From: Gammaproteobacteria bacterium
Lineage (GTDB): Bacteria; Pseudomonadota; Gammaproteobacteria; Chromatiales; Chromatiaceae
Length of the DNA: 64,000 bases
Reading direction: 5' to 3'
NCBI GenBank assembly: GCA_011390365.1
Contig: JAABSM010000002.1
Span: 1 to 64,000, forward strand
Part shown: one piece after another, positions 26,684 through 57,565 of the stretch
How the letters are laid out: every line of letters begins with the position of its first letter
How positions within the stretch are numbered: position 1 is the first letter of the stretch
The notes under the pieces: model-generated
The model's input: the letters and a program-made list of their open reading frames with translations, nothing else
Databases searched by the model: none
Told to the model about the DNA's origin: nothing
Program-made: the position numbers and the translations under genes

Positions 26684-28810
26684 ATGGAATTGGCCCCGTC
26701 AAAGATCGTGTTGCCCCCGCTCAGGGAGGATATCCGCCTGATTCCCGGCGAGTCCGAGCGGGACGGGGCGCCGGCGTGGGTGCTTCAGGATCCCGCCAGA
26801 AACCGCTTTTTTCGCATAGGATGGGCGGAGTTCGAGTTGCTGCGGCGTTGGCGGCTAGGCGATGGCGACGCGGTGATCGCCGAGGTCAACCGCCATACCC
26901 CGTTGCATGTTGAGGAGGGGCAACTGCGGGCGTTGCTGGAGTTCCTCGCCAGAAACCAGTTGCTGCTCGGCCGCGGTCGCGGCTATCGCGACCGATTGCG
27001 GGCCATGGCCCAGGCCGGCCGCCCCTCACCCGGGCAGTGGCTGCTCCACCGCTACCTCTTCTTCCGGATTCCTCTGGTGCGCCCCCACGCCTTTTTGCAG
27101 GCCAGCTGGCCCTGGGTCAGGCCACTCTTCAGCCGCGCTTTCCTGCGTCTGCTGCTGGCGTGCGTGCTGCTGGGGATACTGCTGGCGGCCCAGCGCTGGG
27201 AGAGCTTCAGCGCCACCTTTCTCCACTTTCAGACCCTCGAAGGTTGGCTGCTGTTCGCCATCGCCCTCTCGTTCGCCAAGATCATCCACGAACTGGGGCA
27301 CGCCTACATGGCGACCCGCTTCGGCCTGCGGGTACCCACCATGGGGGTGGCGTTTCTGGTGCTGTGGCCGGTGCTCTACACCGAGAACAGCGAGGCATGG
27401 AAGCTGCCCGAGCGACGCAAGCGGCTGCTGATCGGCGCCGCCGGCATGCTCGCCGAGTTGTCGCTGGCGGTCTTTGCCCTGCTGCTGTGGAGCTTCGTGG
27501 AAGACGGCCCCCTGCGCTCCGCGTTGTTCATGCTCGCCACCTCGACCTGGCTGATGACGCTGCTGGTCAACCTCAACCCCTTCATGCGCTTCGATGGATA
27601 CTATCTGCTCTCCGATCTGCTCGGCTTCGCCAACTTGCAGGATCGCGCCTTCGCCCTGGCGCGCTGGCGCCTGCGGGAGTGGCTGTTCGGACTCGGGCGT
27701 CCGCCGCCGGAACGCCACCCGCCCCGATTGGCGCGTTTTCTGGTGTGGTATGCCTGGGGGACCTGGATCTACCGCTTTTTTCTCTTTCTCGGCATCGCCC
27801 TGCTGGTCTACCATCTCTTCTTCAAGGCCCTGGGGCTGTTTCTGATGCTGGTCGAGATCGGCTGGTTCATCGGGCGTCCGCTGCTGCGGGAGATGGGGGA
27901 GTGGCTGAAATCGGGGGAGGAGATGCGCTGGAATCGTCGTTCGATCAGGACCCTGTCGCTTGTTGCCGGATTGATCGGCCTGGCGTTTCTCCCCTGGGAT
28001 CACCACAGCGACGTGCCCGGGCTGGTGGTGCATCCGCGCCAGAATCGCATCTTCGCCGCCGAGGCCGGGCGGGTGGCGGAGCTGCACGTCGCCCGCGGCC
28101 AGCCGGTAACGGCCGGCGAGCCGTTGCTGCGTATCGAGTCGCCGGATCTCGACCAACGCATCGAGCAGGCGCGCCAGGAGCTGCGCATCGTGGCGCTGGA
28201 GATGGAACGCAAGGCGATCGACGAGGTCTCACTCGAATACCGCGGTATCCTCGAACAGCGCCGGGCGGAGGCCCGTTCCAGCCTTGACGGCCTGCTGGAG
28301 CGAAAAGAGCGGTTGCGGGTAAATGCGACGCTGGATGGGGAGATCGCCTATCTTGACTCCAGTCTGGTGGTCGGACGCTGGATCGATACCCGAACCCCCT
28401 TGCTGCGCATCGTCGATGACCGGACCCTTGAGGTTCATGGTTACCTGGATGGCGAACAGCGCCGCCGCCTGGGGGTGAACGCGGCCGCCCGCTTCTACGC
28501 CGACGACCCGGATCTGACGCCCCTTGCCATGCGGTTGACGCATATCGAGGAGGGCAGCCTGCGGCAACTGGCCACCCCCTATCTTGCCTCGACCTTCGGC
28601 GGTCCGCTGGCGGTGCGCAAGGACGGGTCTGGCGGATTGATCAGCGAGACCCCCCTGTTTCGCGCCGTCTTCCGCCCCGTGGGCGATGTTGAAGGGGGCT
28701 TCGAGCAGGTCGTGCGCGGCGAGCTGCGGGTCGCGGCCGAGGCGCGCAGCCCGCTGTTGCACTTTTTGCGGCGCGCGGCTTCGATTCTCGTACGCGAGTC
28801 CGGGTTCTGA
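26684..28810 (+). CDS. M50 metallopeptidase / HlyD-like fusion membrane protein
   Basis: 708 residues. An N-terminal soluble domain (1-135, with RFFRIGWAEFELLRRW), then a multi-helix membrane part with the site-2-protease zinc motif H202ELGH206 and the third-ligand motif NLNPFMRFDGYY (Asp304), then a final helix near 425 and a barrel-sandwich/HlyD adaptor region (about 440-600: FAAEAGRVAELHVARGQPVT, a coiled-coil hairpin, LRVNATLDGEIAYL). HlyD-type adaptors link inner-membrane exporters to TolC. The peptidase-adaptor fusion plus an adjacent TolC gene indicate a secretion or export device. No ABC or RND pump is encoded nearby. Confidence 0.88.
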   Translation: MELAPSKIVLPPLREDIRLIPGESERDGAPAWVLQDPARNRFFRIGWAEFELLRRWRLGDGDAVIAEVNRHTPLHVEEGQLRALLEFLARNQLLLGRGRGYRDRLRAMAQAGRPSPGQWLLHRYLFFRIPLVRPHAFLQASWPWVRPLFSRAFLRLLLACVLLGILLAAQRWESFSATFLHFQTLEGWLLFAIALSFAKIIHELGHAYMATRFGLRVPTMGVAFLVLWPVLYTENSEAWKLPERRKRLLIGAAGMLAELSLAVFALLLWSFVEDGPLRSALFMLATSTWLMTLLVNLNPFMRFDGYYLLSDLLGFANLQDRAFALARWRLREWLFGLGRPPPERHPPRLARFLVWYAWGTWIYRFFLFLGIALLVYHLFFKALGLFLMLVEIGWFIGRPLLREMGEWLKSGEEMRWNRRSIRTLSLVAGLIGLAFLPWDHHSDVPGLVVHPRQNRIFAAEAGRVAELHVARGQPVTAGEPLLRIESPDLDQRIEQARQELRIVALEMERKAIDEVSLEYRGILEQRRAEARSSLDGLLERKERLRVNATLDGEIAYLDSSLVVGRWIDTRTPLLRIVDDRTLEVHGYLDGEQRRRLGVNAAARFYADDPDLTPLAMRLTHIEEGSLRQLATPYLASTFGGPLAVRKDGSGGLISETPLFRAVFRPVGDVEGGFEQVVRGELRVAAEARSPLLHFLRRAASILVRESGF

Positions 28811-28894: not shown

Positions 28895-30187
28895 ATGAAG
28901 AAGACGACTTTATCCCTGGCCCTGGCGGGGGCGCTGACCCTCAACGGCGGCGTGATGGCGGAGGACCTGATGGAGGTCTACGGCATCGCCCTGGAGAACG
29001 ACGCCCAGCTGAGCGCCGCCCGCGCCGCCCGTGACGCCCAGAAACTGGCCGAACCCCTCGCCCGCACCACCTTTCGCCCGATGGTCTCGCTAAGCGGCGG
29101 CGCGTCCGCCAACCGCGGCGACGATACCACCACCATGAACTACAGCGCCGCCAATATCGGCGTCAACCTCTCCCAGACCCTCTACGACAAACAGGCGGAC
29201 CTGCGCCTCTCACAGGCCGGGGATCAGGCGCTGCAGGCGGATACCCAGTACAGCGGCGAAGAGCAGGCGCTGATCGTGCGGGTCGCCAGGGCCTATTTCG
29301 ACATCCTCGCCGCCCAGGACAACCTCACCTTCGTGCAGGCCCAGAACGCCGCCATCGATCGCCAACTCGATCAGGCCAAGCAGCGTTTCGACGTCGGCCT
29401 GATCGCCATTACCGCGGTCCACGAGGCCCAGGCGGTCTCCGACCAGGCGCGCGCCGATCTGATCCTGGCGGAGAACGAACTCGACAACACCAGGGAAGGG
29501 CTGCGGGAGATCCTCGCCAGTGATGTGGCGCGCATCAGCCCGCTGGTCGCCGCGATCCCTCTGGAGCCGCCGACCCCCGCTGATATCGGACACTGGGGCG
29601 AGATCGCGCTGGAGAACAATCTGGGCATCCTCGCCGCCCGCCAGGGGCTGGAGATGGCGCGCAAGGAGATCGAGGTACAGCGCGCCGCACGCTCCCCTCA
29701 GGTCGACCTGGTGGGTAGCCACACCTACAGCCGCAGCGACGGTGACTACGATAGCGACGCCCATGACACCCGCATCGGCGTACAACTGAGCATGCCGCTG
29801 TGGCTTGGCGGCAGCGTCCCCCTCTCCACCGACCAATCCCGGCTGCGTTTCGAACAGGCCCGGGAGGCCCTGGAGCAGCAACGGCGCAGTGTCGCGCGCC
29901 AGGTGCGCGACGCCTATCGCGGCGTGCTCTCCGGCATCAGCACGGTGCGCGCCCTGGAGGCCGGCGTGGTCTCGGCCCAGAGCGCGCTGGAGGCGACCAA
30001 GGCCGGTTTCGAGGTGGGCACCCGCACCATGGTCGACGTGCTCAACGCCGAACGCGACCTCTACAGCGTCAAGAGCAAGCACGCCGCCGCCCGCTATCAG
30101 TACGTGGTCGCCGGCCTGCAACTGAGGCAGGCCGCCGGCACCCTTGGCCCGCAAGACCTGGCCAAGGTCAACGGCTGGCTGGAATAG
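28895..30187 (+). CDS. TolC-family outer-membrane channel
   Basis: 430 residues with signal peptide MKKTTLSLALAGALTLNGGVMA and RBS aaaggaa. The TolC fold is visible as two repeats of long helices: LMEVYGIALENDAQLSAAR starts the first; VNLSQTLYDKQADLRLSQA and VRVARAYFDILAAQDNL follow; the second repeat has AARQGLEMARKEIEVQRAAR, PLWLGGSVPL and TRTMVDVLNAERDLYSVKSK. Its partner is most likely the M50-HlyD fusion 84 bp upstream. The gap between them shows a GC-rich hairpin-like stretch but no T tract. Confidence 0.95.
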   Translation: MKKTTLSLALAGALTLNGGVMAEDLMEVYGIALENDAQLSAARAARDAQKLAEPLARTTFRPMVSLSGGASANRGDDTTTMNYSAANIGVNLSQTLYDKQADLRLSQAGDQALQADTQYSGEEQALIVRVARAYFDILAAQDNLTFVQAQNAAIDRQLDQAKQRFDVGLIAITAVHEAQAVSDQARADLILAENELDNTREGLREILASDVARISPLVAAIPLEPPTPADIGHWGEIALENNLGILAARQGLEMARKEIEVQRAARSPQVDLVGSHTYSRSDGDYDSDAHDTRIGVQLSMPLWLGGSVPLSTDQSRLRFEQAREALEQQRRSVARQVRDAYRGVLSGISTVRALEAGVVSAQSALEATKAGFEVGTRTMVDVLNAERDLYSVKSKHAAARYQYVVAGLQLRQAAGTLGPQDLAKVNGWLE

Positions 30188-30905: not shown

Positions 30906-32201
30906 ATGGCCAACCCCGCCCGCGACTTCTATCGCGCCTTGAATACCGAGATTCGTTTACTGGAGGATGATCCGAATGACCCCCGCTATGTCGAAATCCT
31001 CCAGCGCATGCCCAAGAGCAAGGACCCGATCGAGCGCTTGAGGCGAAAAATCCTCTTCGAGGAGTCCGAGAGCGTCAACCTGCTGACCGGCTTTCGCGGC
31101 AATGGCAAGAGCACCGAGCTTCGTCGCCTCAAGTGGCGATTGGAAGAGCAGGGCTGTGTAGTGGTATTGGTCGACATGGCCAACTACATGCTTTTCACCA
31201 AACCGGTAGAGCTCTCCGATTTTGTTCTTTCACTGATGATGGGCTTGACCGAGGCCACCAAGAAGGAGCACGATCTTGATGCCGCGGCACGCGGATACTT
31301 CACGCGCCTGACTGACTTCTTCAAGAGAGAGGTCGAGTTCGAGTTCGCGGCCGAAGTGGCTGATGCGACTCTCGGGGCCAGCCTGAAAAGCGACCCCACC
31401 TTCAAGGAGAGCCTGCAAAAGGCCTTGAGAGGTCATTACAAGCGAATAACGGATCAGGCGCGAGAGTATGTGGGAGAGATCGTTGCCGCGTTACGCGAAA
31501 AACGCAAGGATCCAGGGCTTCAGCTGGTATTGCTGGTCGATTCGGTTGAACAGATCCGGGGCATCGGCATAAGCGAGGAGTCACGACAAGTCCACGATAG
31601 CATGGTGGAGCTCTTCTATGGCCAGGCCAGCAACCTCCGCTTTCCTTTGTTGCATGTGGTCTATACCATCCCTCCCTTTCTTCGCCCGCTGATGCCCGGC
31701 GTCGCCAAGGTCTATGGCAGTACCGTGGTCTCCTGGCCGAACGTGCATGTGCGCAAACGGGATGGAAGCGATGATCCAGGTGGGCTTGCGCTACTGGAGG
31801 AGATTGTCCAACGTCGTTACCCAGCGTGGCGGGACTTTTTCGACGGCGACCAACTGAAGCGCCTGGGCAGGGCTACCGGCGGTGATTTGAGGGATTTCTT
31901 TAGGGTGTTGCGCGAGGCGTTGATCGATGCCAGCACGATTGAAGAGAGGGTGAATGACGACATTGTCGTGCAGGTAGAAAGCCGCCTTCGCCGTGAACAT
32001 TTGCCGATCGCCGCGAAGGATGCCCGCTGGCTTGCCAAGGTTCATGAGGAGAAGGGCGTCGCGCTGGAGGATACCGAGGCGCTATCCGACCTTGCCCGCT
32101 TCTTCGACAACAACCTGATCATGAACTACCTCAACGGTGAGGATTGGTACGATGTTCATCCCCTGCTGCTCGACGAGGTCCGCAAGCATCGTGGGGATTG
32201 A
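30906..32201 (+). CDS. Unrecognised P-loop ATPase (STAND/AAA-like)
   Basis: 431 residues, soluble. Walker A G62FRGNGKST70, Walker B in LQLVLLVDSVEQIRG (Asp212), a sensor-like segment LLHVVYTIPPFL, and a winged-helix-like C-terminus with GRATGGDLRDFFRVLREAL and WYDVHPLLLDEVRKH. A charged helical insert (about 110-185) separates Walker A from B. Similar stand-alone ATPases occur in cyanobacteria and proteobacteria beside TPR proteins, and some STAND ATPases are immune receptors. Here the presumed partner is the TPR gene downstream. No family name can be given; its role as a sensor or switch is inference. Confidence 0.8.
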   Translation: MANPARDFYRALNTEIRLLEDDPNDPRYVEILQRMPKSKDPIERLRRKILFEESESVNLLTGFRGNGKSTELRRLKWRLEEQGCVVVLVDMANYMLFTKPVELSDFVLSLMMGLTEATKKEHDLDAAARGYFTRLTDFFKREVEFEFAAEVADATLGASLKSDPTFKESLQKALRGHYKRITDQAREYVGEIVAALREKRKDPGLQLVLLVDSVEQIRGIGISEESRQVHDSMVELFYGQASNLRFPLLHVVYTIPPFLRPLMPGVAKVYGSTVVSWPNVHVRKRDGSDDPGGLALLEEIVQRRYPAWRDFFDGDQLKRLGRATGGDLRDFFRVLREALIDASTIEERVNDDIVVQVESRLRREHLPIAAKDARWLAKVHEEKGVALEDTEALSDLARFFDNNLIMNYLNGEDWYDVHPLLLDEVRKHRGD

Positions 32202-32239
32202 AGGTCGGTTGGTGGTTGAAAGGGAGAAGGGCGAAACAG

Positions 32240-32278
32240 TCCCCCCCTTTCGCAAAGGGGGGTTAGGGGGGATTTCCC
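32240..32278. repeat. Dispersed hairpin repeat between ATPase and TPR genes
   Basis: ccccccttt (32242-32250) pairs with aaagggggg (32254-32262), followed by ttaggggggattt. This short element is widely scattered in bacterial intergenic DNA. It occupies much of the 151-bp gap separating the two genes. Confidence 0.6.
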
Positions 32279-32352
32279 GAACATTACGCCAGGCATCGGA
32301 CATAGGCCCTGATTCTCCATTGCCCTGCCGGCCTTTCCCAAAGGGCTGAACC

Positions 32353-33465
32353 ATGGATGCCCTGGATATTCGCGGCGAAGAGGAGTGGCGGCGGCTCAAG
32401 ACCCACCTGGAGTGGAGCGAGGGTTTTGTCTTGGGTTTCATCTTCAGCGAGCATCCGCGGGTGGTAGATATCTTTCGCGAGCGCTTGGCCGATCTCTATC
32501 GCGCCCGGGTCACCCGCCTGCAAGAGTGGCGGGTAGAAGAGCCCCAGCAGCTGCAAACCTGCATTTCTCGTCTGTCGCGCCCTACTCAACGCGAACAGGC
32601 CCTGAAGGATGCCCCCATCTGGCTCGACCTCTCCCGTCTCGACCGCAAGGATGAAAGCCGCTGGCGTGACGCCCGCGGCCACTTTCTCAGTCGTCTCAAC
32701 GAAAACCGGGAGCCCCTGCGTCAACGCCAGAACCGGCCCGTGGTGCTGATCCTGCCCGCCGGCGAACGCTCTCAGGCCAAGGCCCTTGCGCCGGACCTGT
32801 GGGCGATCCGCACCTTCTGTCTGGATACTCAGAATTGGATCGGCTCGCTACCCGCCCACCCTGTTGTCGAGCCTACCCCAAACCTCGGGGCCTTTCCACT
32901 CTCTGCCTACGAACGGCAACTGGTGAAGGAGTGGGAGCGGTTATTGGCTCGCCATCGGCAGCAGACCGCCCAGGGCGACCCCCGCCCTAAACACATCCTT
33001 AATGCCGGCTTCAATGCCTTCAACGCCCTGTATGGCAAACGCCATCTGCAAGCGGCGCAAGGGGTTGCCGAGCGTTGCCTGCAACTGGCTCGCGAAACCC
33101 CCGAGGCCTTGCGCGACATCTCCGTCTCTTTGAACAACGTGGGCAAAACCGCCCAGGCCCTCGGCCGCTGGGAGGACGCCCGCGCCGCCTTCGACGAATC
33201 CTTGGCGATGAGCCGCCAAATCCTCCAACGCGTCGGCGAAACCCCCGAGGCCTTGCGCGACCTTTGTGTTTCCCTCAATAATCTGGCTGAGGCTGCGCGG
33301 GCGCAAGGGTATGAGATAGCGGCCCGCGAGCTATGGGGGGAGGCGCTGGAGATCGGCGAGCGTCTCGCCATCGCCCTGCCGGAACACGAAGATTACAGGG
33401 GCTTGGACGACTATTTTCGCCAGCAATTGTCGGGCCTGGACGGGGGTAAGGGTGAGGGTTCTTGA
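32353..33465 (+). CDS. TPR protein, presumed partner of the ATPase
   Basis: 370 residues, soluble. The N-terminal region (1-175: WRRLKTHLEWSEGFVLGFIF, then RVTRLQEWR and LWAIRTFCLDTQNW) is an unrecognised globular domain. The C-terminal part carries two and a half TPR-like repeats (VSLNNVGKTAQALGRWEDA, LCVSLNNLAEAARAQ). The module GETPEALRD.[SC]VSLNN is repeated with an exact 26-bp DNA match 144 bp apart (33092-33117 and 33236-33261). Such arrays in STAND-linked proteins expand and contract; here it looks short. The ribosome site before ATG 32353 is weak. Confidence 0.75.
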   Translation: MDALDIRGEEEWRRLKTHLEWSEGFVLGFIFSEHPRVVDIFRERLADLYRARVTRLQEWRVEEPQQLQTCISRLSRPTQREQALKDAPIWLDLSRLDRKDESRWRDARGHFLSRLNENREPLRQRQNRPVVLILPAGERSQAKALAPDLWAIRTFCLDTQNWIGSLPAHPVVEPTPNLGAFPLSAYERQLVKEWERLLARHRQQTAQGDPRPKHILNAGFNAFNALYGKRHLQAAQGVAERCLQLARETPEALRDISVSLNNVGKTAQALGRWEDARAAFDESLAMSRQILQRVGETPEALRDLCVSLNNLAEAARAQGYEIAARELWGEALEIGERLAIALPEHEDYRGLDDYFRQQLSGLDGGKGEGS

Positions 33466-33604: not shown

Positions 33605-36094
33605 TTACTGGCTGAAGTCGCGGATGCGAACGAAGCGGGTCTCGCCCACGGCATCGTCCAGGCCGTCGTTGTCGGTGACAAGGTAGAGGGCGCCATCGTG
33701 GCCGATGGTCATGCCTTCCACCTTGTCCGGGACCCAGGCGGTGCCGGCGGCGAGGTCGGGCAGCACGTCGCGGACCAGGGTCTTGTTGAACACCGGATAG
33801 GCGGTGCCGGGGTAGCTCAGGCTATCCAGGGAGACATAGTAGACCCGCTTGACCGCGGCCTTGGGGCCTTGCTGATTGTCTCGCTCCAGCACCAGGAAGT
33901 CACGATCGGAGAGGGCGACGATCTCCGAAAGGCCCACCCAGCCGGTATCGGTGGCATCCAGCGGATAGTAGATGAAGTCCCACATTCCGGTGGCCGGGGT
34001 GTACTCGCCGATCTTGACGTAACCGTCGGGATCGTTGTTCCACTCCCGCTGCACCGCCACGTAGACCTTCTCCATGTCACCAGCGCCGACCGAGGCGACC
34101 CCTTCGAAGCCGAAGCGCACCCGGTGGGCCTGGATCGCGGCGGGCAGGGTGATCTCTTCCAGCACGTTGCCGCTCTGATCGGCGCGAATCAGCAGGTTGG
34201 GGGAGTCGTCGCCATTACCCTCGGAGACCAGCCAGAAGCCGCCTTCGGCGCGGGTGGAGATCCCTTCCAGGTCATAGTTGACGGTAGCGCCGCCCTTCAT
34301 CAGCAGGGTCTGGCCGGTGATTACCGCCGGTTCGTCCGAGACATCCACGGTGTAGATCCGCGACTGCTCGTAGAAGCTGTCATGGATGGTGTAGAGGGTG
34401 TCGCTCTGGAACGGATCGGTGGCGAGGCCGGAGAGGGCGCCCCAGCCGATGATGCCGCCGTCGTCGGAGCGGGAGGTGATCTGGGGGTAGTCGGCCTTGT
34501 CGTAGCCATATTCGAAGATGCTGACGATCGAGCGAAAGCCGTCATCGGCGGAATCCTTTTCCGCGGCGACCACCAGCAGGTTGCGCGCGGGGATCGGCAG
34601 GATCCCTTCGGGGCCGACGCCGGTGGCCAGGAATTGATAGTATTCCGGAACCGTGTTGAGTTCACCCTGGAAGACGCCGATGAAGTTGCCCCGCTCGGAG
34701 CCGACGAACAGGAACTCGTTGCCTTGGTAGTTGCCGGCGGCTACCCCTTCCGGCTCGGTGCCCTTGTTGTCTGCTCGGCCCTCCGGATAGTGGCCGTTGA
34801 TGTAGGCGATGTCTTCGATCTGGGTATCGGAGTTGTGGACCAGATTGCCGTTGATGTCGTGGATGGCGTAGCCGCGGCTGCCGCCCTTGTAGTCGCCTTC
34901 GTTGGCGGTCACGATCCAGTTGTCGTAGAGCCAGGTGACCGCATCCGGCTCGGCCGGGACCTGGCTCAGGCTGTCGACCGGGTTGAGCAGGTTGTCGTCG
35001 TCCACATTGACCATGTCGAGGTCGAACTTGCCTGCCGAGAAGTGGCTGACCAGCTGGTTGCTGGCGAGGTCGACCACCGCGATGTGGTTGTTCTCCTGCA
35101 AGGTCACCACCGCCATGTCGTTGCCGTTGATGGCAACGTACTCGGGTTCGGGGTCGCTGGGGCCTTCCTCGGCGATGCCGGTGAGGTCGACCTGAGTGAC
35201 GCTCCAGGATTGGGGGTCTCCATTCAGGGCGATGACCGCGAGATAGCCCGCCGGGCTCTGGGGCAGGGCGCCCATCTTGCCGCCGGCGGTCTCGCAGGCG
35301 TCTTCGTTGTCTTCACCGTGATATTCGTCAAGCTGGTTGCCGTTCTCCAGCACGCAAGCCTCTTCGTCGCGCTCGTTTTCGATCGCCACGGCGGCGTAGC
35401 GACCGCTGGGGGCGACCGCGACCGCGTCCGGCTGACCGCCGAGGTCGATGGCGCGTACCTGGACCGGGTCGTCGACGTCGCTGATGTCGATCACCGCGAG
35501 GGAACCCGCGGGGGCGGAGTAGTTGCCATCTTCGACCACGCCGACCAGCAGGTACTGACCGATGACGCTGACCGAGGTGGGCTCGCCATCCACCGCGAAA
35601 GAGCCCTTCGGCTCGGGAAAACGGGGATCGCTGATATCGATGAACTCGATCCGCTCCATCGGGCTGTTGGAGTAGATCAGGGTGTCGCCGCTATGGTTGA
35701 CGGTTATGATCTCGGCGGAGGTCTGGCTATCCATCTCTTCGTCCGCCGCGAGGTTTCGGTAGACCTTGAAGTCGCTCAGCAGGTTGAAGTAGCGCAGCGG
35801 CTGGGCGGGTTCACCCTGGCCCCCTTGGTCATCATTACCGCCTTGGTCATCATTACCGCCTTGGTCATCATTACCGCCTTGGTCGTCCTGGCCGCCGGTG
35901 TTGTCCTGGCCGCCGGTGTTGTCCTGGCCGCCGGTGTTGTCCTGGCCGCCGGTGTTGTCCTGCGGTTCATCCATGGCTGCCTTGATGGTGTCTACGAGGA
36001 GATCCCCCAGTCCGGCCTGGGCGGGCGCCGCCACGGCGCTCAGGGCGGCGATGGCGGTCGCGAGAAGGGTGCGGTTGAAAGGCTTGGCAAGCAT
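33605..36094 (-). CDS. Secreted phytase/esterase-like beta-propeller protein
   Basis: 829 residues. Signal peptide at about 1-28 (ending APAQAG), then a low-complexity linker (about 43-95) of four DNTGGQ and four DQGGN units, then a beta-propeller of the choice-of-anchor-I kind (YSNSPMERIEFIDISDPRFP, VAPSGRYAAVAIENERDEE, TANEGDYKGGSRGYAI) and a C-terminal phytase-like esterase domain (YDLEGISTRAEGGFWLVSEG, RFGFEGVASVG, VPDKVEGMTIGHDGALYLVTDNDG). It likely hydrolyses phosphate esters outside the inner membrane. RBS aggag. It lies 17 bp after the barrel-protein gene on this strand, so they form an operon. Confidence 0.88.
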   Translation of the reverse strand: MLAKPFNRTLLATAIAALSAVAAPAQAGLGDLLVDTIKAAMDEPQDNTGGQDNTGGQDNTGGQDNTGGQDDQGGNDDQGGNDDQGGNDDQGGQGEPAQPLRYFNLLSDFKVYRNLAADEEMDSQTSAEIITVNHSGDTLIYSNSPMERIEFIDISDPRFPEPKGSFAVDGEPTSVSVIGQYLLVGVVEDGNYSAPAGSLAVIDISDVDDPVQVRAIDLGGQPDAVAVAPSGRYAAVAIENERDEEACVLENGNQLDEYHGEDNEDACETAGGKMGALPQSPAGYLAVIALNGDPQSWSVTQVDLTGIAEEGPSDPEPEYVAINGNDMAVVTLQENNHIAVVDLASNQLVSHFSAGKFDLDMVNVDDDNLLNPVDSLSQVPAEPDAVTWLYDNWIVTANEGDYKGGSRGYAIHDINGNLVHNSDTQIEDIAYINGHYPEGRADNKGTEPEGVAAGNYQGNEFLFVGSERGNFIGVFQGELNTVPEYYQFLATGVGPEGILPIPARNLLVVAAEKDSADDGFRSIVSIFEYGYDKADYPQITSRSDDGGIIGWGALSGLATDPFQSDTLYTIHDSFYEQSRIYTVDVSDEPAVITGQTLLMKGGATVNYDLEGISTRAEGGFWLVSEGNGDDSPNLLIRADQSGNVLEEITLPAAIQAHRVRFGFEGVASVGAGDMEKVYVAVQREWNNDPDGYVKIGEYTPATGMWDFIYYPLDATDTGWVGLSEIVALSDRDFLVLERDNQQGPKAAVKRVYYVSLDSLSYPGTAYPVFNKTLVRDVLPDLAAGTAWVPDKVEGMTIGHDGALYLVTDNDGLDDAVGETRFVRIRDFSQ
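35825..35962. repeat. 18-bp tandem repeats encoding the protein linker
   Basis: Three units ttggtcatcattaccgcc, one hybrid unit, then units ggtgttgtcctggccgcc, all with an 18-bp period and nearly identical within each type. They encode DDQGGN and DNTGGQ hexapeptides. Copy number is likely variable between strains, always in frame. Confidence 0.9.
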
Positions 36095-47868: not shown

Positions 47869-49917
47869 ATGAGAACGAGCACTGGGAAAGGTGGCGGACG
47901 GAAATCTGTGGTATTTCTCGGAGTCGGACTGGTCGTCTCGATTGCCCTCTCTATCGTGATATTCGTCCACGTATCGCAGTGGATTGGTTATGAAGAGGAG
48001 TACCGCTTTCGCGTCGCGGAGCAGCGAGTGACGTCGGAGCGAATCGCGAAAAACTCGCTGGCCGCGGCAAGCGGTGTGGAAGAGGCGTTCAATGGGCTGC
48101 GAGAGGCCAGGGATGAGTTCGAGAAACTCATGGGTGAGTTGAAGAGCGGCATCCCTGGCGAACTGCCGCCCTCTCCCGCGGGCAAGCCGCCGGAACTCGC
48201 GGCCAAAACCCAATTGCGGCGGCTCGAAAACGCGTGGCTGGAACTACGCCAGAACGCCGACGACATCCTCGGCAGCGAGGAGTCGATCGTTTCGGTGCGC
48301 GGTTACGTCAACGGCGTGACGGAGTCCATCCCTGACCTTCTCGCCCTCTCCCAGCAGTTAGTCGCCAATCTGGTCAACAAGGGCGGCACGCCCGAGCAGA
48401 TGACCTTCGCCGCCGAACTGCCCATGCTCACCCAGCGTATCGACAAGAACGTGGGGCGGGTATTGGACGGTGGTCGTCTGACCGCGGCGGCCATCGACCG
48501 TTTCAGCCGTGACGCGGATCGCTTCGGCAGGGTGCTGGTCGGTATGCTCGAGGGCAGTGACATCCTCGGCCTGGAGCCGGTGACCAACCCCACCGCGGTC
48601 GAGGAGCTGCAGACGATGGCGGAGATCTTCCGCGGCATCAACGAGCGTGCCGAGCAGATCATTGAGACCACCCCTGAACTGTTGCCGGCCCTCGAGGCCG
48701 CCAGCAAGGTAACGGAGGTTTCCGACCGGGTGGGCAAGGAGGCCCGCGAGATGATCGATGTCTACCGCGACCAGCCAGGGCGCTGGGAGTTGGCGGGAAT
48801 CAAGGCGGGACCGCTGGTGATCGCCGTATTCGGTATCCTGGCGGCGATCTTCTTCGTGCTCCTCTCGGTGATCCTGCTGCGCTCGGCGCGTGCCGGGGAA
48901 GAGGAGTCCAAGGAGCAGAACGAACGTAACCAGCGCGCCATTCTGCGACTGCTCGATGAGATGGGCGACCTCGCCGACGGCGACCTTACCGTGACCGCTA
49001 CGGTAACCGAGGACGTGACCGGGGCCATCGCCGACTCCATCAACTACGCCATCGAGGCGCTGCGCTCTCTGGTAACCACCATCAACGAAACCGCGGACAT
49101 GGTCTCCTCCTCGACCCAGGAGTCGCGCACCACCGCGATGCATCTCGCCGAGGCCTCCGAGCATCAGGCGCAACAGATCACCTCGGCCACCGAGGCCATC
49201 AAGAAGATGACCAAGGAGATCGACAAGATGGCCCAGGATGCGGTGGACTCGGCGGACATCGCCCAGCGCTCGATGGAGATCGCCGGGCGCGGCGCCGAGG
49301 CGGTACGCAGAACCATCGGCGGCATGGATAACATCCGCGAGCAGATCCAGGAGACCTCCAAGCGAATCAAACGACTGGGTGAGTCCTCCCAGGAGATTGG
49401 CGACATCGTGGAGATCATCGACGACATCGCCGACCAGACCAACATTCTCGCCTTGAACGCGGCCATGCAGGCGGCCATGGCGGGTGAAGCGGGTCGCGGC
49501 TTCGCGGTGGTTGCGGACGAGGTGCAGCGCCTCGCGGAACGTTCCTCCAACGCCACCAAGCAGATCGATGCGCTGGTCAAGACCATTCAGGCGGATACCA
49601 ACGAGGCGGTGAGCTCGATGGAGACCACCACCGCGGAGGTGGTGGCGGGCGCCAAGCTCGCCGAGGATGCCGGCGAATCGCTGTCCGAGATTGAAAGCGT
49701 GTCGACGCGCATCGCCGAGGTGACCATCAAGATCGCCGATTCGGCGAAGACGCAGTCGGCGGAGGCGATCCGCATCGATGAAACGGTGTCGGTGATTCAA
49801 GAGATCACCGCCCAGACCCTGGAAGGTACCAACCAGACCGCAACCTCCATCGGAAGACTGGCCGACCTGGCCGAAGACTTGCAGAAGTCGGTGGCCGGCT
49901 TCCGCCTGCCGGGTTGA
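47869..49917 (+). CDS. pilJ: Twitching motility methyl-accepting chemoreceptor PilJ
   Basis: 682 residues. Membrane helix 1 at about 13-35, periplasmic helical PilJ sensor domain to about 312, membrane helix 2 at about 314-336, HAMP, then a cytoplasmic coiled coil whose hairpin tip (about 512-565: [38 protein letters not shown]) binds PilI and ChpA. The tip is the PilJ variant, not the enteric one. No CheR homologue (pilK) gene is encoded after it, unlike Pseudomonas. RBS gggagttgag. Confidence 0.95.
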
Positions 49918-49966: not shown

Positions 49967-52900
49967 ATGACCGAGGCCCATGATTACAGTGCCCTGAAGT
50001 GGCTTGATCGGGAATTGGGCGATACCATCGGTCAGGCGCGCAATGCACTACAGGAATTCGTCGAAGGGGCGGGTTCCAAGTCGCTGATGGAAGAGTGTGC
50101 CAGCCACGTGCATCAGGTGCACGGCATCCTGCAGATGGTTCAGGTGCATGGCGCCATGCTGCTCGCGCGCGAGATCGAAGAGTCGGCGCGCAGGCTCACC
50201 GAAGGGGATATCGAGGGCGACGAAGAGGAGTTCGCCGAGACCCTGATGATGGGGTTGATCCGCTTGCCCGATTATCTGGAGCAGGTGCAAACGGATAATC
50301 TCGACAATCCGCTGCTGCTCATGGACACCCTCAACGAACTGCGCGATTGGCGCAAGGCGAAACCGCTGGAGCAGTTTCAGCTGTTCGCGCCGGCGTTCAA
50401 GGGCAAGTTGCTGGCGGATACCGGCGAGGGAAAACCCAATCCCCAGCTACCGGGCTTGGCGAAGGCGGTGCGTCCGCGCATGCAGCGCGGACTGCTCGCC
50501 TGGATCAAGGGAACGGATGTCGCCGACGGGCTCGATAATCTGCAAAAGGTCATGCAGGTGCTCGAGCGCAGCGCCGGCACGGATCAGGTCAGGCGCGTCT
50601 TTCACATCGTCAGGGCGGCGCTGGTGCTGCCCCTCAAGGACGCCGAGGGAAGCGGGGCATCCGTCAAGAAGCTGTTCGCGCGGGTCGATCAGTTCATTCG
50701 CCGCATCGTCGAGGGCGGTGAGCAGGGGATCGTCCAGGACTTCCCCCTTGAGCTCGGCCAACGTCTTCTCTATGAAGTTGGCTCGGCGACCGTAGAGGAT
50801 GATCTGCTCAAGGAGGTCAGGGATCACTATGGCCTGGCCTGGATTGCCCGTTGCAAACTGGCGGCGGGCCTCGGCCGCGGCATGCGTTCCGCGAATCGGG
50901 AGATGCTCTCCTCCTTCAAGGAGGCGCTGGGCGAAGACCTTACCGGAATCAAGGACAAGCTGGATCTCTTCATCCGCACCGGCAGCAGCGACCCACAGCA
51001 GCTGGCCTTCCTGGAGGCGCCCCTGCGCACCGTGGCCGGGACGCTGGGGATGGTCGGTCAGGACAACCTCCGTCAGCGTCTGCTCAAGCAGGCCGAGCTG
51101 CTGAAGAGTACCGCCGGCCAGGGCGAGATGCCCGGTGAGTCCGAACTCATGAGCATGGCTGGCGATATCCTGTTCGTCGAGACATCGCTTGAAAACCTCT
51201 CCAGCACCAGCGCCGAGAAGCGGGCCGGCGAAGAGGTCACGGGTGCGGAGGGGGCGGGCGCCCTGGAAATGCCGTCCGGCGAATACGAAAAGCTGGTCGG
51301 AACCGTCATCCAGCAGGCCGCGATCGACATGCACAAGTGCAAGGATGCCATCCTTGCCTATCTCAAGACCCCAGAAGAGATCTCCCTGCTGTCCCAGGTG
51401 CCGGTACGCTTCAGCACGATCTCCGGCGCCTTCGAGATCCTCAAGCTCGGCGAGGCCTCGGCACTGGTCAAGAAACTCGCCGGCTTCGTGTCCGAACAGA
51501 TCATTCGGCGTCGCGTCGAACTGGACAAGGATCGAATGAACCTGTTCGCGGACTCGGTAACCAGTATCGAGTACTTCATGGAGTCCATGGCCGAAGGTCG
51601 GGGCGCACAGAGGGATATCCTCACCTTTGCGGACCAGTCCCTCAACAACCTGATCGAGGTGGTGGGTGACGAGGATCGCTCGGCGGAGTACGTCCAGGAC
51701 CGCCCGCCCGAGCCCGAAGTGACCCTGGAAATGGGCGATCTCGAAACCCTCACCATGACCGCGGACGGCGTCCAGGCGGCGGACCTGGCCGCCTCTTCCG
51801 GGGAAGGGGCAGACGCCGGCGCCGAGGAGGAGAAGATCCTCGACGAGGTCGACCCCGAGATCCTCGAGATCTTCATCGAAGAGGCGCGGGAAGAGCTCAG
51901 CGTGATACGGGAGTTCTTCCCGCGCTGGAAGAACGATCGCAATGACCGGGACGCCCTGATCACCTTCCGCCGTTCCTTCCATACCCTCAAGGGAAGCGGA
52001 AGGCTGGTTGGCGCCGCGACCATCGGCGAGCTGGCCTGGTCCATCGAGAACCTGCTCAACCGCATCATCGACCAGACGGTGCCGGTTACCAACGACGCGC
52101 TGGCGGTTATCGACGAAGCGGTAGGGGCCTTGCCCGCCCTGGTCGAATGTCTGGAAAAGGGGCGCGAGCCGAAATTCAACGTGCAGTTGATGATCGACAA
52201 GGCCCTCGCCCTCGCCGATCCGGAGAAGCGGGACAATCATGAAGAGGATCACACCTCCGATGAGGTTCCGGAAATTCCCCCGGATGAACAGCAAGAAGAT
52301 TCGGCGGCGCAATCGAAGAGGCCTGGCAAGGGCGAGCCGGCGCGGGATGACGGCGGCACGGCGGCGTCCGATGCGAGCAAGGGCGGCGCGGCTTCGACGG
52401 TAGAAGCAGAGACGGCTAAGGCGGGGGCGACGGTCCTTGAGGATGTGGATCCGGAGATCCTTGATATCTTCATCGAGGAGGCCAAGGAGGAGCTGGAAAC
52501 CATCGGCAAGTACTATCCCGTATGGCGTGAAAACCACAGCGACAAGGACTCCCTGACGGTATTTCGCCGCTCCTTCCACACCCTCAAGGGCAGCGGTCGC
52601 ATGGTGGGCGCCATGACCATCGGCGAACTGGCCTGGTCGGTGGAGAACCTGCTCAACCGAATCATCGAGGAAGCCGTAAAGGTTACGCCGCCGGTACTGG
52701 AGATGATCGATGAGACCATCGCTCACCTGCCCCACCTGATCGACTGTCAGGAGCACGCCAAGGCTCCCACCATCAATGTCCAACCCCTGATAGATCGAGG
52801 GACTCTTCTCGCCAAGCCGGGCGGGGCGGAACAGGTCGAGAAGGAGGGGACCCCCTTGAAGGCATTGATCGCCGGCGCATCGGCCGCTGGCGGCCAGGCA

Positions 52901-55900
52901 TCGGCGGCGACCGACGAAGAGGCGGATGCGAGTGCGGTGCAGGAAGTGTCCACCACGGAAGAGGGAATGGAGAGCGATCTCGATCTCGGCGCATTGCCGG
53001 AAACCGACTGGGATGACGTGCCCACGGAGCCGATCGAGCCCACCGAACCCATTGAAGATATCGATGAGGGCGACGACTTCTCAAGCCTGGAAGAGGGCGA
53101 CGAAGGCGAGATCGAGCTGAAAGGCCTGTGGGAAGAGGGCGACGAGCCGAGCGCCGATTCCGATACGGCGCTGGAAGGTCTGGGGGATTTCGGCGACCTG
53201 GAAGGCCTGGGCGAAGACGACGAGCTGGCGACCCTCGATGACGGTGAGATCGAGCTTGAAGGCCTGTCGGAAGAGGGCGACGAGCCGAGCGCCGATTCCG
53301 ATACGGCGCTGGAAGGTCTGGGGGATTTCGGCGACCTGGAAGGCCTGGGCGAAGACGACGAGCTGGCGATCGGCGATGAGGGCGAGATCGAGCTTGAGGG
53401 GCTTTCCGAAGAAGGGGCGGTCTCCGACGATGACATCAATTTTTTCGCGGGCCTTGAGGATGACCTGACCCAGGGACAGGAAGGGGCATCGGAAGAAGGC
53501 TCGCGGCAAGACGCTGAAAAAAAAAATGAGCAGGAAGGCGATGAAATAGGGGACTTTGGGGAGACTTCATCGTTCGGTGATTTCGCCGATTTGATGCTTG
53601 ACGAAACCGTCGCCACCACACAGCGCTTCGACGACGAAGTGGCGGATGATGACTTGCAAGCCGAGCACGGTGGGGTCGAGGTGGAGGAAGGAGGGGAGGT
53701 TTCCGGGCCTCCGGATGCCGGCGAGGAGCCGCGCACCGTCGAAGATGCCACGTTGGATGAACTGGATGATGACTTCTTCGACGGTGAGCAGGCCATGTTT
53801 GCTGGTGATGACCCCGATCAAGAGCTGACCGATGATGACGTGAAAGGCGATGCGCCTTCCATCTCCGAGCAGGGCGAAGGATTGAATGGCCCGCGGGAGG
53901 CCGATGATTGGGAGTCGATCGCTTCGGGGTTCGGCCATCTTGAAGACGATTTCGAGCAGGAATTGACCGGCCTGATCTCTACCCAGTTCAATGAATTCGA
54001 TGACGAGCTGGGTTCTGAAGAAGAGGAGGAAGCCGCTTCCGCTCCTGTCGCCATTGATGATGGGGGCGAGTCGATGGAAGCGGACGTCGCCGAAGCGCCG
54101 ATCCAGATCGACGACACCCTGTTGGAGATCTTTTCCGGAGAGAGCCGCACCCACCTCGCCACCCTTCGGGAGTTCCTCGACCGCTGCGAGGCGAGCGATG
54201 CCGATATCGTGCCCGATGAGTCGGTTACTCGCGCCCTGCACACCCTCCGCGGCAGCGCCCATATGGCGGAGGTCACGCCGATCTCGGCGGTGGGAGGGGC
54301 GCTTGAGGGATACGCCAAGACGTTGCTCAATCATGGAATTCCCGTCGATCAGCGCTTCTGCGACCTCCTCGCGAACGGAGTGGTGGCGATCGAGCAGGTG
54401 CTGGGGGCCATCAACCGCCCGGGGGCCGAACTTCCGGAATGGCGGGCGTTGGCGGATGAGGCGAACGAATTGCGGCAGGCCGTCCTTGCCGAGGATCGTG
54501 AGGCGGGTACCAAGGAGTCCGCAGCGAAAGAGACGCCGGATCAGCAACCGCAAGAGACGGGGAGTCAGGCCCGGAGCGAGCCGCCGACGGGAGTTCCGGA
54601 AGGGGGGCCGGACGGGACTGAGGGCGCTTCTCCAGACAACCCATTCCCCAGTGCCGACGAGCCGCCGGTGCGGGTGTCGGCGGATGAGGAGCTCATCGAG
54701 ATCTTCATAGAAGAGGCGGAAGAGCTGCTGGACAGCCTCGATAACACGCTGACGGGATGGTCCACCGAGGGTGAGGACCGTGAGTCCATGTCGGAATTGC
54801 AGCGTACCCTGCATACCCTCAAGGGTAGCTCACGCCTCGCGGGCATCAGCGCCATTGGTGACTTGAGTCACTCTTTCGAATCATTGCTGATCGGCATTCG
54901 TCAGGAGAAGCTTGCGCATACCAGCGAAATCCATGAGCTGTGTCTGAAGGTGGCGGATCGTCTGGTGCGACAGGTGGAGGAGGTGAGAGACTCCCGACGG
55001 GTCACGCCCGCCACCGTACTGGTGGCGGTGCTGGATGGGCTGATCGATGGCTCCGTGGGGACCGATCGGCTGGATGACTTCCTGGTCGAAAGCGAGGACT
55101 CGGCGAGAGAAGAGACGCCGCTGGCGACCGCGGCCCCGGTCAAGGCTGCCGATGAGGAGGCGGTCGCGGAGGAGGTGGTTGCGGTCGATGCGGATCCGGA
55201 ACTGGCCGAGATCTTCCTGGAAGAGGCGCGAGACCTGCTCGACTCCCTGGATCAGACGGTCCACGAATGGGGGGGAAGTATCGAAAACCTGGAGCCCATC
55301 GCGGAACTCCAGCGGGTCCTTCACACCCTCAAGGGCAGCTCCCGCCTGGCGGGCATAGCCCCGATCGGCGACTTGAGTCACGCCTTCGAATCCCTGCTGG
55401 TGGCGCTGAAGCAGGAGAACATCGCGATGAAACCGGAGTTCTTCAGGCTCGCGCAAAGCGCTACCGACCGCCTGGCCGAGCAGATCGGAGAGGTCAAGGA
55501 GAACGGCAAGGTCGCTACCTCCAACTGGCTGGTCAGGTTGCTGGAGGCGGCGCAGCGCGGAGAATACATCGAGCTGGAAGAGACCGGCATTCATGACACC
55601 ACCCGGATCGCCCAGTCCGCGGCGCAGAAGGTGCGGGATGAGCAGAAGAAAAAGCAGGAACAGGAGCAGCAGCCCGGCCAGGACGGCGGGGCGCAGAAAA
55701 AGGGCGGGCGCGAACAGGTCCGGGTGAGACCGGAACTGCTGGATCGACTGGTCAACTACGCCGGTGAGATCAGTATCTACCGCGCGCGCCTTGAGGAGCA
55801 GAACAGCACCCTTGGCTTCAACCTTCAGGAAATGATCCAGACGGTCGGGCGCCTGCGCGCCCAGCTGCGCAATATGGAGATCGAGACCGAGGCCCAGATC

Positions 55901-57565
55901 CTCTCCCGCTACGAAAAGGAGTTGGAAGAGAGCGGCATGGAGCAGGACAAAAACTTCGATCCGCTGGAGATGGACCAGTTTTCCAACATGCAGCAGCTCT
56001 CTCGCGCGCTGGTGGAGACGGTTAGCGACCTGACCAGCATCAACGACGCGCTGGATGGGTTGCAGCGGGACACGGATACCCTGTTGCTACAGCAATCCCG
56101 GGTCTCGGTGGACCTCCAGGACGGGCTGATGCGCACGCGCATGGTGCCCTTCTCCCAGACCATTCCGCGCTTGCGACGTCTGATTCGCCAGACCTGCTCG
56201 TCTCAGCGGAAACGGGCGGAGCTCGCGGTGGTCGGCGGTGAAGCGGAAATCGACCGCAACATCCTCGATCGCGTCATCGGTCCCATTGAGCACCTGCTTA
56301 GAAACTCCGTCTCCCACGGCATTGAGACCCCGGACGAAAGGGTCGGCAAGGGCAAGAGTGATGTGGGCAGGATTACCTTCACCCTATCGCGCGAGGGCAA
56401 CGATGTCGTCATCATGATCTCCGACGATGGCGCGGGGCTCAATCTGGACAGGATTCGCGCCAAGGCGATCGACCGCGGACTGCTCGCGGAGGGGGCCAAG
56501 GTCTCCGACGAGGATCTGATGCAGTTCATCCTGGAGCATGGATTCTCCACCGCCTCGAAGGTCGATCAGGTCGCGGGGCGAGGCGTCGGCATGGACGTGG
56601 TGGTTAGCGAGATCAAGCAGATGGGCGGCTCGCTGAAGATTCGTTCGGAATGGGGCAAGGGCGCGGATTTCATTCTCATCCTGCCGCTCACCCTGGCAGT
56701 AACCGACTCCCTGCTGATGAAGCTGGGCGAGGATGTCTATGCGGTTCCCCATACCGGCATGGAAGGTGTGGTGCGGATCTCCCGGGAAGATCTGGTGGCC
56801 TGCTACGAAGGCCGCAAGGAGGGGTTCGAGTATGCGGGCAATACCTACCTGCTGCGATACCTGGGCGGATTGCTGGGCACAGCCGCCATGCAACTTCCGG
56901 AACAGCAGCGCTGGTTTCCGGTGCTGCTGGTGAAAGCCGGTGAACACCGGGTCGGGCTCCAGGTGGATGAGCTGCTGGGTAACCGTGAGGTGGTGGTGAA
57001 ACCCCTCGGCCAGCAGCTCAACGGGTTGCGTTGGCTATCCGGCGGCACCATCCTTGCCGATGGCCAGGTGGCGCTGATCCTGGATGCCCCGGCGGTGGTG
57101 CGCATGGATGCGGCGAAGACCGTGGTGACCACGGAGGAGGCGGCCCCCGCGCAGCCGGTGGAAGAGAAGAAGCCGGCGCGCCAGAAGCTGCTGGTGATGG
57201 TGGTGGATGACTCCATTACCGTTCGCAAGGTAACGACCCGTTTCCTCACCCGTCATAACATGGAGGTGGTTACCGCCAAGGATGGTGTCGACGCGGTCGC
57301 CCAATTGCAGGAGATCCGCCCCGATATCATGCTGCTGGATATCGAGATGCCGCGCATGGACGGTTACGAGCTGGCCCGTCATATCAAGCACTCGCATGAG
57401 CTCAAGGATATCCCGTTGATCATGATCACCTCCCGCACCGGCGAGAAACACCGTAACGTGGCCAAGGAGCTGGGCGTCGAGCGTTATCTCGGCAAGCCCT
57501 ACCAGGAGACGGAGCTGCTGGAGACCATTCAGGAGCTGACCGCCGATGTGGAGGTTCAGGCGTGA
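49967..57565 (+). CDS. chpA: ChpA-type hybrid chemotaxis histidine kinase
   Basis: 2,532 residues. Domains: N-terminal helical FimL/PilL-like region (1-600); five phosphotransfer domains with phospho-His at 672, 871, 1425, 1616 and 1786 (FHTLKGSGR, LHTLRGSAH or LHTLKGSSR contexts); acidic spacer (about 1020-1380) with 46-residue tandem repeats; dimerisation helices (about 1915-2075); HATPase with N-box HLLRNSVSHGIETPD (His2109), DDGAGLNL (Asp2153) and GRGVGMDVV; CheW domain (about 2230-2380); C-terminal receiver with acceptor Asp2458 in LLDIEMPRMDGYE. It feeds phosphate to PilG and PilH. An A9 run at 53518-53526 lies in the spacer. pilJ ends 50 bp upstream; the next CheW gene overlaps its stop. 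Confidence 0.95.
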   Translation: MTEAHDYSALKWLDRELGDTIGQARNALQEFVEGAGSKSLMEECASHVHQVHGILQMVQVHGAMLLAREIEESARRLTEGDIEGDEEEFAETLMMGLIRLPDYLEQVQTDNLDNPLLLMDTLNELRDWRKAKPLEQFQLFAPAFKGKLLADTGEGKPNPQLPGLAKAVRPRMQRGLLAWIKGTDVADGLDNLQKVMQVLERSAGTDQVRRVFHIVRAALVLPLKDAEGSGASVKKLFARVDQFIRRIVEGGEQGIVQDFPLELGQRLLYEVGSATVEDDLLKEVRDHYGLAWIARCKLAAGLGRGMRSANREMLSSFKEALGEDLTGIKDKLDLFIRTGSSDPQQLAFLEAPLRTVAGTLGMVGQDNLRQRLLKQAELLKSTAGQGEMPGESELMSMAGDILFVETSLENLSSTSAEKRAGEEVTGAEGAGALEMPSGEYEKLVGTVIQQAAIDMHKCKDAILAYLKTPEEISLLSQVPVRFSTISGAFEILKLGEASALVKKLAGFVSEQIIRRRVELDKDRMNLFADSVTSIEYFMESMAEGRGAQRDILTFADQSLNNLIEVVGDEDRSAEYVQDRPPEPEVTLEMGDLETLTMTADGVQAADLAASSGEGADAGAEEEKILDEVDPEILEIFIEEAREELSVIREFFPRWKNDRNDRDALITFRRSFHTLKGSGRLVGAATIGELAWSIENLLNRIIDQTVPVTNDALAVIDEAVGALPALVECLEKGREPKFNVQLMIDKALALADPEKRDNHEEDHTSDEVPEIPPDEQQEDSAAQSKRPGKGEPARDDGGTAASDASKGGAASTVEAETAKAGATVLEDVDPEILDIFIEEAKEELETIGKYYPVWRENHSDKDSLTVFRRSFHTLKGSGRMVGAMTIGELAWSVENLLNRIIEEAVKVTPPVLEMIDETIAHLPHLIDCQEHAKAPTINVQPLIDRGTLLAKPGGAEQVEKEGTPLKALIAGASAAGGQASAATDEEADASAVQEVSTTEEGMESDLDLGALPETDWDDVPTEPIEPTEPIEDIDEGDDFSSLEEGDEGEIELKGLWEEGDEPSADSDTALEGLGDFGDLEGLGEDDELATLDDGEIELEGLSEEGDEPSADSDTALEGLGDFGDLEGLGEDDELAIGDEGEIELEGLSEEGAVSDDDINFFAGLEDDLTQGQEGASEEGSRQDAEKKNEQEGDEIGDFGETSSFGDFADLMLDETVATTQRFDDEVADDDLQAEHGGVEVEEGGEVSGPPDAGEEPRTVEDATLDELDDDFFDGEQAMFAGDDPDQELTDDDVKGDAPSISEQGEGLNGPREADDWESIASGFGHLEDDFEQELTGLISTQFNEFDDELGSEEEEEAASAPVAIDDGGESMEADVAEAPIQIDDTLLEIFSGESRTHLATLREFLDRCEASDADIVPDESVTRALHTLRGSAHMAEVTPISAVGGALEGYAKTLLNHGIPVDQRFCDLLANGVVAIEQVLGAINRPGAELPEWRALADEANELRQAVLAEDREAGTKESAAKETPDQQPQETGSQARSEPPTGVPEGGPDGTEGASPDNPFPSADEPPVRVSADEELIEIFIEEAEELLDSLDNTLTGWSTEGEDRESMSELQRTLHTLKGSSRLAGISAIGDLSHSFESLLIGIRQEKLAHTSEIHELCLKVADRLVRQVEEVRDSRRVTPATVLVAVLDGLIDGSVGTDRLDDFLVESEDSAREETPLATAAPVKAADEEAVAEEVVAVDADPELAEIFLEEARDLLDSLDQTVHEWGGSIENLEPIAELQRVLHTLKGSSRLAGIAPIGDLSHAFESLLVALKQENIAMKPEFFRLAQSATDRLAEQIGEVKENGKVATSNWLVRLLEAAQRGEYIELEETGIHDTTRIAQSAAQKVRDEQKKKQEQEQQPGQDGGAQKKGGREQVRVRPELLDRLVNYAGEISIYRARLEEQNSTLGFNLQEMIQTVGRLRAQLRNMEIETEAQILSRYEKELEESGMEQDKNFDPLEMDQFSNMQQLSRALVETVSDLTSINDALDGLQRDTDTLLLQQSRVSVDLQDGLMRTRMVPFSQTIPRLRRLIRQTCSSQRKRAELAVVGGEAEIDRNILDRVIGPIEHLLRNSVSHGIETPDERVGKGKSDVGRITFTLSREGNDVVIMISDDGAGLNLDRIRAKAIDRGLLAEGAKVSDEDLMQFILEHGFSTASKVDQVAGRGVGMDVVVSEIKQMGGSLKIRSEWGKGADFILILPLTLAVTDSLLMKLGEDVYAVPHTGMEGVVRISREDLVACYEGRKEGFEYAGNTYLLRYLGGLLGTAAMQLPEQQRWFPVLLVKAGEHRVGLQVDELLGNREVVVKPLGQQLNGLRWLSGGTILADGQVALILDAPAVVRMDAAKTVVTTEEAAPAQPVEEKKPARQKLLVMVVDDSITVRKVTTRFLTRHNMEVVTAKDGVDAVAQLQEIRPDIMLLDIEMPRMDGYELARHIKHSHELKDIPLIMITSRTGEKHRNVAKELGVERYLGKPYQETELLETIQELTADVEVQA
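53108..53383 (+). repeat. 138-bp tandem repeat inside chpA
   Basis: Two full units of 138 bp (starts 53108 and 53246) and a partial third from 53384, nearly identical over most of their length, encode a 46-residue acidic module (EIELEGLSEEGDEPSADSD, then ALEGLGDFGDLEGLGEDDE). Repeats are in frame, so copy changes only lengthen or shorten the spacer. Confidence 0.9.

Follow-up and report, generated by a model that had tools for sequence, protein, structure and literature searches.

A candidate two-gene conflict switch built from an ORC/Cdc6-TnsC-like ATPase and a partner with a constant N-terminal domain

The window, a stretch of 64,000 nucleotides (nt) from a Gammaproteobacteria bacterium of the Chromatiaceae (assembly GCA_011390365.1, contig JAABSM010000002.1, positions 1 to 64,000), carries at 30906..33465 two genes on the same strand, 151 nt apart. 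The first encodes an AAA+ ATPase, the second a partner protein in which an N-terminal domain (hereafter N-domain) is followed by a short array of TPR repeats. The original prediction, made from the letters of this DNA, located both open reading frames (ORFs), the Walker A motif from G62 to T70 and Asp212 correctly, and proposed a conflict system with the N-domain as effector. Comparison across loci shows that the ATPase and the N-domain are coupled and that the module behind the N-domain is exchanged, and we consider it somewhat better than an even bet (about 55%) that the pair is a nucleoside triphosphate (NTP)-dependent conflict switch, immune or self-destructive, split over two proteins. 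The features of the pair are as follows.

30906..32201, + strand: AAA+ ATPase gene, 431 amino acids (aa), ORC/Cdc6-TnsC-like by structure model
31089..31115, + strand: Walker A, residues 62-70, GFRGNGKST; G62, G65, G67, K68 and T70 invariant in 13 aligned rows
31539..31550, + strand: end of Walker B, residues 212-215, DSVE; D212 and E215 invariant, S213 nearly so (13 rows)
31878..31892, + strand: GG-D-L-R, residues 325-329; G325, G326 and R329 invariant, D327 not (13 rows)
32133..32165, + strand: signature NGEDWYDVHPL, residues 410-420; N410, G411 and D413-L420 invariant, E412 nearly so (13 rows)
32353..33465, + strand: partner gene, 370 aa, constant N-domain and TPR array (Pfam, model)
32353..32847, + strand: constant N-domain, residues 1-165, alpha/beta with five strands (alignment, secondary structure of the model)
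32893..33447, + strand: TPR region, residues 181-365
33109..33252, + strand: 48-residue TPR unit 1, sharing silent sites with units of locus L003
33253..33396, + strand: 48-residue TPR unit 2, divergent and terminal

Coupling of the two genes and exchange of the downstream module

Searches seeded with the ATPase yielded 42 loci besides the window (13 + 4 + 8 + 8 + 9): the first 13 came from a contig scan with peptide patterns of the window ATPase and are near relatives because the patterns were taken from that protein, followed by 4 new loci among relatives, 8 in the class, 8 in plasmid records and 9 new ones in the family to which G791 belongs, the genome that carries L015 and bears the title Candidatus Accumulibacter adjunctus. 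Using profiles of both parts, we found that in 41 of these 42 loci the ATPase is followed on its own strand by an N-domain gene, the remaining locus being unreadable, so the pair recurs in other genomes, in support of the original prediction. The N-domain match starts at most 280 nt from the nearest ATPase stop in all 41 loci and at most 60 nt from it in 33, with several overlaps, and from this close spacing we infer that the two genes are co-transcribed. Conversely, among 38 further loci seeded by the N-domain (5 + 5 + 20 + 8), the ATPase lies immediately upstream in 32, once in two pieces and once cut by a contig end. The coupling of ATPase and N-domain is strong, not absolute.

The region after the N-domain varies. 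TPR arrays are the commonest form, as recognized by Pfam in the window and four other partners and by eye in the rest, several of which end at a contig edge. Other partners carry TIR_2 (L008, 1.9e-12), SIR2_2 with NACHT and FGE (L011, SIR2_2 at 1.1e-19) or DUF4062 with NACHT and FGE (L155, DUF4062 at 3.3e-18); for the L014 partner no Pfam match was found. At seven cyanobacterial plasmid loci the partners reach about 1290-2060 aa, and the Pfam matches listed for four cyanobacterial partners include nSTAND1 in L040 and L041 (8e-32 and 4e-31) and WD40 in L040, L042 and L046. On the Calothrix plasmid of L041 (7980-15487), two tandem ATPases, the second fused to TIR_2 (1.5e-33), precede a partner bearing two N-domains. 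The loci L007 and L008 share 357 of 447 ATPase residues (80%) and 88 of 160 N-domain residues, and despite their similar ATPases the tail is TPR in the former and TIR in the latter. Because the tail swaps while the N-domain stays, we regard the N-domain as a constant adaptor and reject it as the effector: across loci it is the ATPase-linked part, with the exchangeable module behind it. To judge by these sequences, the tail exchange is the module-swapping of conflict systems.

Predicted structure and sequence evolution of the two proteins

In Pfam, the window ATPase matches AAA_22, AAA_16, ATPase_2 and nSTAND_NTPase5, each below its own cut-off (18.4 bits for nSTAND_NTPase5, cut-off 34), and no KAP match was found at E <= 1. 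PADLOC gave no significant match (best E 0.024 for the ATPase and 0.037 for the partner), NCBIfam only weak or sub-threshold matches for both proteins, and the bacterium's own genome one match at E <= 0.01 for each gene of the pair. The structure model of the ATPase (pLDDT 86.1, pTM 0.88) has the overall fold of ORC/Cdc6-TnsC-like AAA+ proteins: Foldseek and VIA matched it to Cdc6/ORC, TnsC, SSO1545 and CED-4, the best structural matches being Cdc6/ORC and TnsC. The GG-D-L-R motif resembles the sensor-2 GDxR of ORC/Cdc6. The region of the NGEDWYDVHPL signature, a position at which the cyanobacterial copies have other letters, is modelled as strand-strand-helix. Residues 370-427 are modelled as helices, two strands and one helix, and the VIA ranges with ORC2 and CED-4, which mark the first and last aligned residue only, extend to residue 431; the C-terminal part of the ATPase may accordingly be called winged-helix-like, as far as the model goes.

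The original prediction had taken the ATPase for a plain STAND protein, an assignment that we do not retain. The P-loop and Walker B of an ASCE ATPase are present, with invariant residues in the 13 rows. The STAND signature consists of a sensor-1 Arg and a GxP motif; neither was found in the ATPase, whose conserved positions read Y-T-V-P-P-Y and GG-D-L-R, and no Pfam STAND model scores above its cut-off on the window protein. Nor are effector, NTPase and sensor joined in one chain: they are divided between two genes in the window and in the majority of relatives, the Calothrix ATPase-TIR fusion being an exception.

Nine residues of the N-domain are invariant in 14 rows (F25, W90, W104, N116, R119, P147, D148, W150 and R153), and the N-domains of cyanobacteria and proteobacteria are related (hhalign probability 94.6, E 7e-8). 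The partner's N-terminal 175 residues, described as unrecognised in the original prediction, indeed have no Pfam match at E <= 1, and no relative of the N-domain with a solved structure was found by sequence at E below 1. Fold searches with the whole partner model (pLDDT 83.4, pTM 0.52) returned match lists filled by TPR proteins. The modelled order of strands and helices is compatible with a P-loop-less alpha/beta domain, such as an inactive STAND core would be; a recognisable relationship of the N-domain to the ATPase found no support in profile comparison.

The TPR region of the window partner scores 41.4 bits with TPR_10 (Pfam cut-off 27.5). Its repeat duplication, correctly noticed at the outset, comprises two units spaced 144 nt (48 codons), with just 33% identity between them over 48 aa (74% over the first 65 nt of the second). 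The unit is 48 aa long throughout the window's branch, and all multi-unit proteins are spaced in multiples of 48 except L080. Copy number varies, another expectation that was borne out: in proteins read to the end we counted 2 units in the window, 3 in L003, 11 in L076 and 12 in L098, using a regular expression that can miss diverged units.

Unit 1 differs from the rest of the pair in its silent sites. Its DNA is 93-94% identical to two units of L003 (9462-10715), from another genus, and the codons at identical residues are unchanged at 39 of 43 and 41 of 44 positions, compared with 164 of 306 in the ATPase and 63 of 114 in the N-domain of the same genome pair. Fisher's test gives P values of 1.6e-6 and 1.1e-7 when the units are compared with the ATPase and 2.4e-5 when the first unit is compared with the N-domain; these values are too small inasmuch as codons within one tract are non-independent, and they concern a single genome pair. 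Silent identity is ordinary between unit 1 and L004 (20/36) and is not raised in the terminal unit (13/29). Among 56 genomes unit 1 was found in two, in each case in this gene alone, the cassette-donor scan having scored 14 of 87 candidate places in the own genome and 14 of 119 in G003, and no donor was found in plasmids. Since the silent sites of one unit are almost unchanged between two genera and those of the rest of the pair are not, the sequences suggest repeat-cassette exchange or recent transfer between lineages as the simplest reading; codon-level constraint is a possible alternative cause.

Distribution and genomic surroundings

The ATPase occurs in 5 of 56 genomes of relatives and in 8 of 369 of the class, and an N-domain search of the phylum gave 6 of 398, the own genome being included each time; further counts are 8 of 150 for the G791 family, 20 of 301 for the order that includes the genome of L008 and 8 of 347 for the phylum that includes the genome of L011. 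The distribution is sparse and patchy, at 1.5-9% of genomes per sampled group, figures that are rough lower bounds because the groups were centred on a positive genome and candidates were partly scored in many genomes. The plasmid search gave 10 places in 8 records, and 8 were examined. Annotated CHAT, NB-ARC or NACHT genes lie within 8 kb in four of these eight records (by annotation only and without a background control), namely CHAT in L039, CHAT, NB-ARC and TIR in L040, a CHAT-TPR gene in L042 and NACHT together with HicA/HicB in L046; none of these genes is annotated within 8 kb in L041, L043, L044 or L045.

Neighbouring genes were compared for 138 mechanically picked ORFs of 27 loci (three of 30 prepared loci, with 10 of 148 ORFs, were omitted), considering the 25 commonest of 45 PADLOC and of 202 Pfam families. 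No Pfam family occurs in more than three loci among these ORFs. The neighbours are mostly ordinary genes that are different at each locus; a housekeeping operon, or a failure of the two genes to co-occur, either of which the original prediction had named as evidence against itself, was not encountered.

The gap between the two window genes contains a palindrome:

32242..32262, no strand: palindrome CCCCCCTTTCGCAAAGGGGGG, the sole site in the window within 3 mismatches

It appeared in 0 of 100 shuffles, and in many relatives the two genes abut or overlap, leaving no palindrome-bearing gap. RNA structure in the gap was not significant (z -0.61).

The pair begins 30 nt after a PKHD-type hydroxylase gene, which itself follows TolC-like and HlyD/M50-like genes. 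The latter (26684-28810) encodes an M50-type peptidase fused to a HlyD-like adaptor, scores 154 bits with the NCBIfam daptide HExxH model (below the cut-off of 300) and adjoins the TolC-like gene at 28895-30187, with which it looks like an export or peptide-maturation unit. Downstream of the pair, 33605-36094 encodes a phytase-like/choice-of-anchor protein, which has a homologue in 8 of 56 genomes and, close to its N-terminus, a short tandem repeat of the form GGQDNT/GGNDDQ. Elsewhere in the window, a PilJ/MCP-type gene (47869-49917) stands ahead of a gene for a 2532-aa chemotaxis-type kinase with repeated Hpt domains, a CheW-like domain and a receiver (49967-57565).

Interpretation and relation to known systems

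We propose that the ATPase and the partner's N-domain, a near-obligate core as shown by their conservation, operate as a split, NLR-like switch to which different modules are attached. Judging from its fold, the ATPase probably forms an ATP-dependent oligomer, which would bind the partner through the N-domain, and the exchangeable C-terminal module would sense, execute or do both: TPR, WD40 or FGE regions may provide ligand-binding surfaces, and TIR or SIR2 may act as NAD+-consuming effectors in some members. Since its partner holds only a short TPR array, the window copy is most likely a sensor or scaffold form; that its effector acts in trans, or that the assembly itself is the effector, is an unsupported suggestion. 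The idea of a conflict system with which the original prediction began thus gains from the TIR, SIR2, NACHT and nSTAND1 modules of the family, but we only infer the function of the window copy.

Several observations weigh against a conflict switch. Six of the 38 loci seeded by the N-domain lack a whole ATPase, comprising one contig end, one short N-domain fragment, one ATPase fragment and three loci without any ATPase match (L092, L142 and L161). Most partners seen, the window's included, are TPR-only and without a recognised effector, and in the window copy none was recognised in cis. Relatives were found neither in phage records nor, by pattern scan, in viral contigs. Finally, no PADLOC family occurs in more than two of the 27 loci (138 neighbour ORFs, without a background control); with no recurring neighbour family there is no conserved operon or defence neighbourhood on chromosomes, and the anticipated proximity to defence genes finds no support in these neighbours, though single neighbours match PADLOC models strongly (PD-T4-4_A, 3e-105; PDC-M47A, 9e-87).

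A more specific version of the proposal is tentative: the family could be an undescribed class of split NLR-like switches, in which an ORC/TnsC-type AAA+ protein works with a constant adaptor that docks interchangeable sensor or killer modules, the TPR form being an array for recognition inside the cell, renewed as whole 48-codon cassettes are swapped between lineages.

Among the rivals, a signalling or gene-regulation pair, in which the ATPase would bind DNA through its winged-helix-like end and the TPR partner would be a peptide or protein receptor of the Rap/PlcR type, fares best and is still improbable, since in relatives TIR, SIR2, NACHT and WD40 replace the TPRs, the patchy presence is unlike that of a core regulator, and the structural matches to TPR proteins are generic. 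We give somewhat less credence to decay from an ancestor with an effector, the TPR-only copies being remnants or decoys kept by chance; the damaged or absent ATPases of some loci (pieces in L014 and L143, a fragment in L162, none in L092, L142 and L161) are what such decay would leave, whereas in the window the P-loop is intact and the partner frame is open, and copies with TPRs, the commonest form seen, retain in the aligned rows the residues that are invariant in the two cores. That the pair serves transposition or target selection, its ATPase being a TnsC/TniB-like regulator, is very improbable.

If the conflict switch is real, bacteria possess a portable ATPase-adaptor core to which TPR, WD40, TIR, SIR2 or NACHT modules are attached, a natural experiment on the wiring of NLR-like switches. 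As Pfam has no entry for the constant domain, proteins whose annotation rests on TPR or WD40 repeats alone could be assigned to its family, and natural pairs such as L007 and L008 make the question of sensor versus effector directly testable.

Known systems resemble the pair in different respects. ORC/Cdc6, TnsC, archaeal SSO1545/PABY2304 and CED-4 are like the window ATPase in fold over most of the chain, but identity is 10-18% in the VIA matches listed, and the window family has its own signature and its own partner. The KAP-family P-loop NTPases are matched by one cyanobacterial copy, L040, which exceeds two Pfam cut-offs (KAP_NTPase, 24.4 versus 20 bits; NPHP3_N, 26.5 versus 24.8 bits). 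The nSTAND2 counter-invader system likewise comprises two adjacent genes (Kaur et al., 2021; PMC8195603). In it an active NTPase accompanies a constant module that is not catalytic and to which varying predicted effectors are fused; both constant cores are STAND modules, and GT4 and HEPN are the commonest effectors. The window family shares the arrangement of neighbouring genes of which one bears a variable effector, but its partner core has no Pfam family and does not resemble the ATPase by profile (hhalign probability 0.6), and the variable part seen is TPR, TIR, SIR2, DUF4062, NACHT-FGE, nSTAND1 or WD40. The MoxR-vWA ternary systems with iSTAND also combine an ATPase switch, a constant adaptor and a variable sensor or effector (Kaur et al., 2020; PMC7159879), whereas our family has two genes, not three, and neither a MoxR nor a vWA protein. 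Several partners are themselves NACHT or nSTAND1 NLR-like proteins with FGE, as in the STAND systems linked to diversity-generating retroelements (DGR; PMC10907252), placed behind the N-domain; what sets them apart is the separate second ATPase and the constant N-domain. We found no description of this pair in the literature searched, which excluded supplements, such as those of the Kaur papers, that may hold one. The closest published logic that we found is the nSTAND2 two-gene system, followed by the iSTAND ternary systems and the DGR-linked STAND systems.
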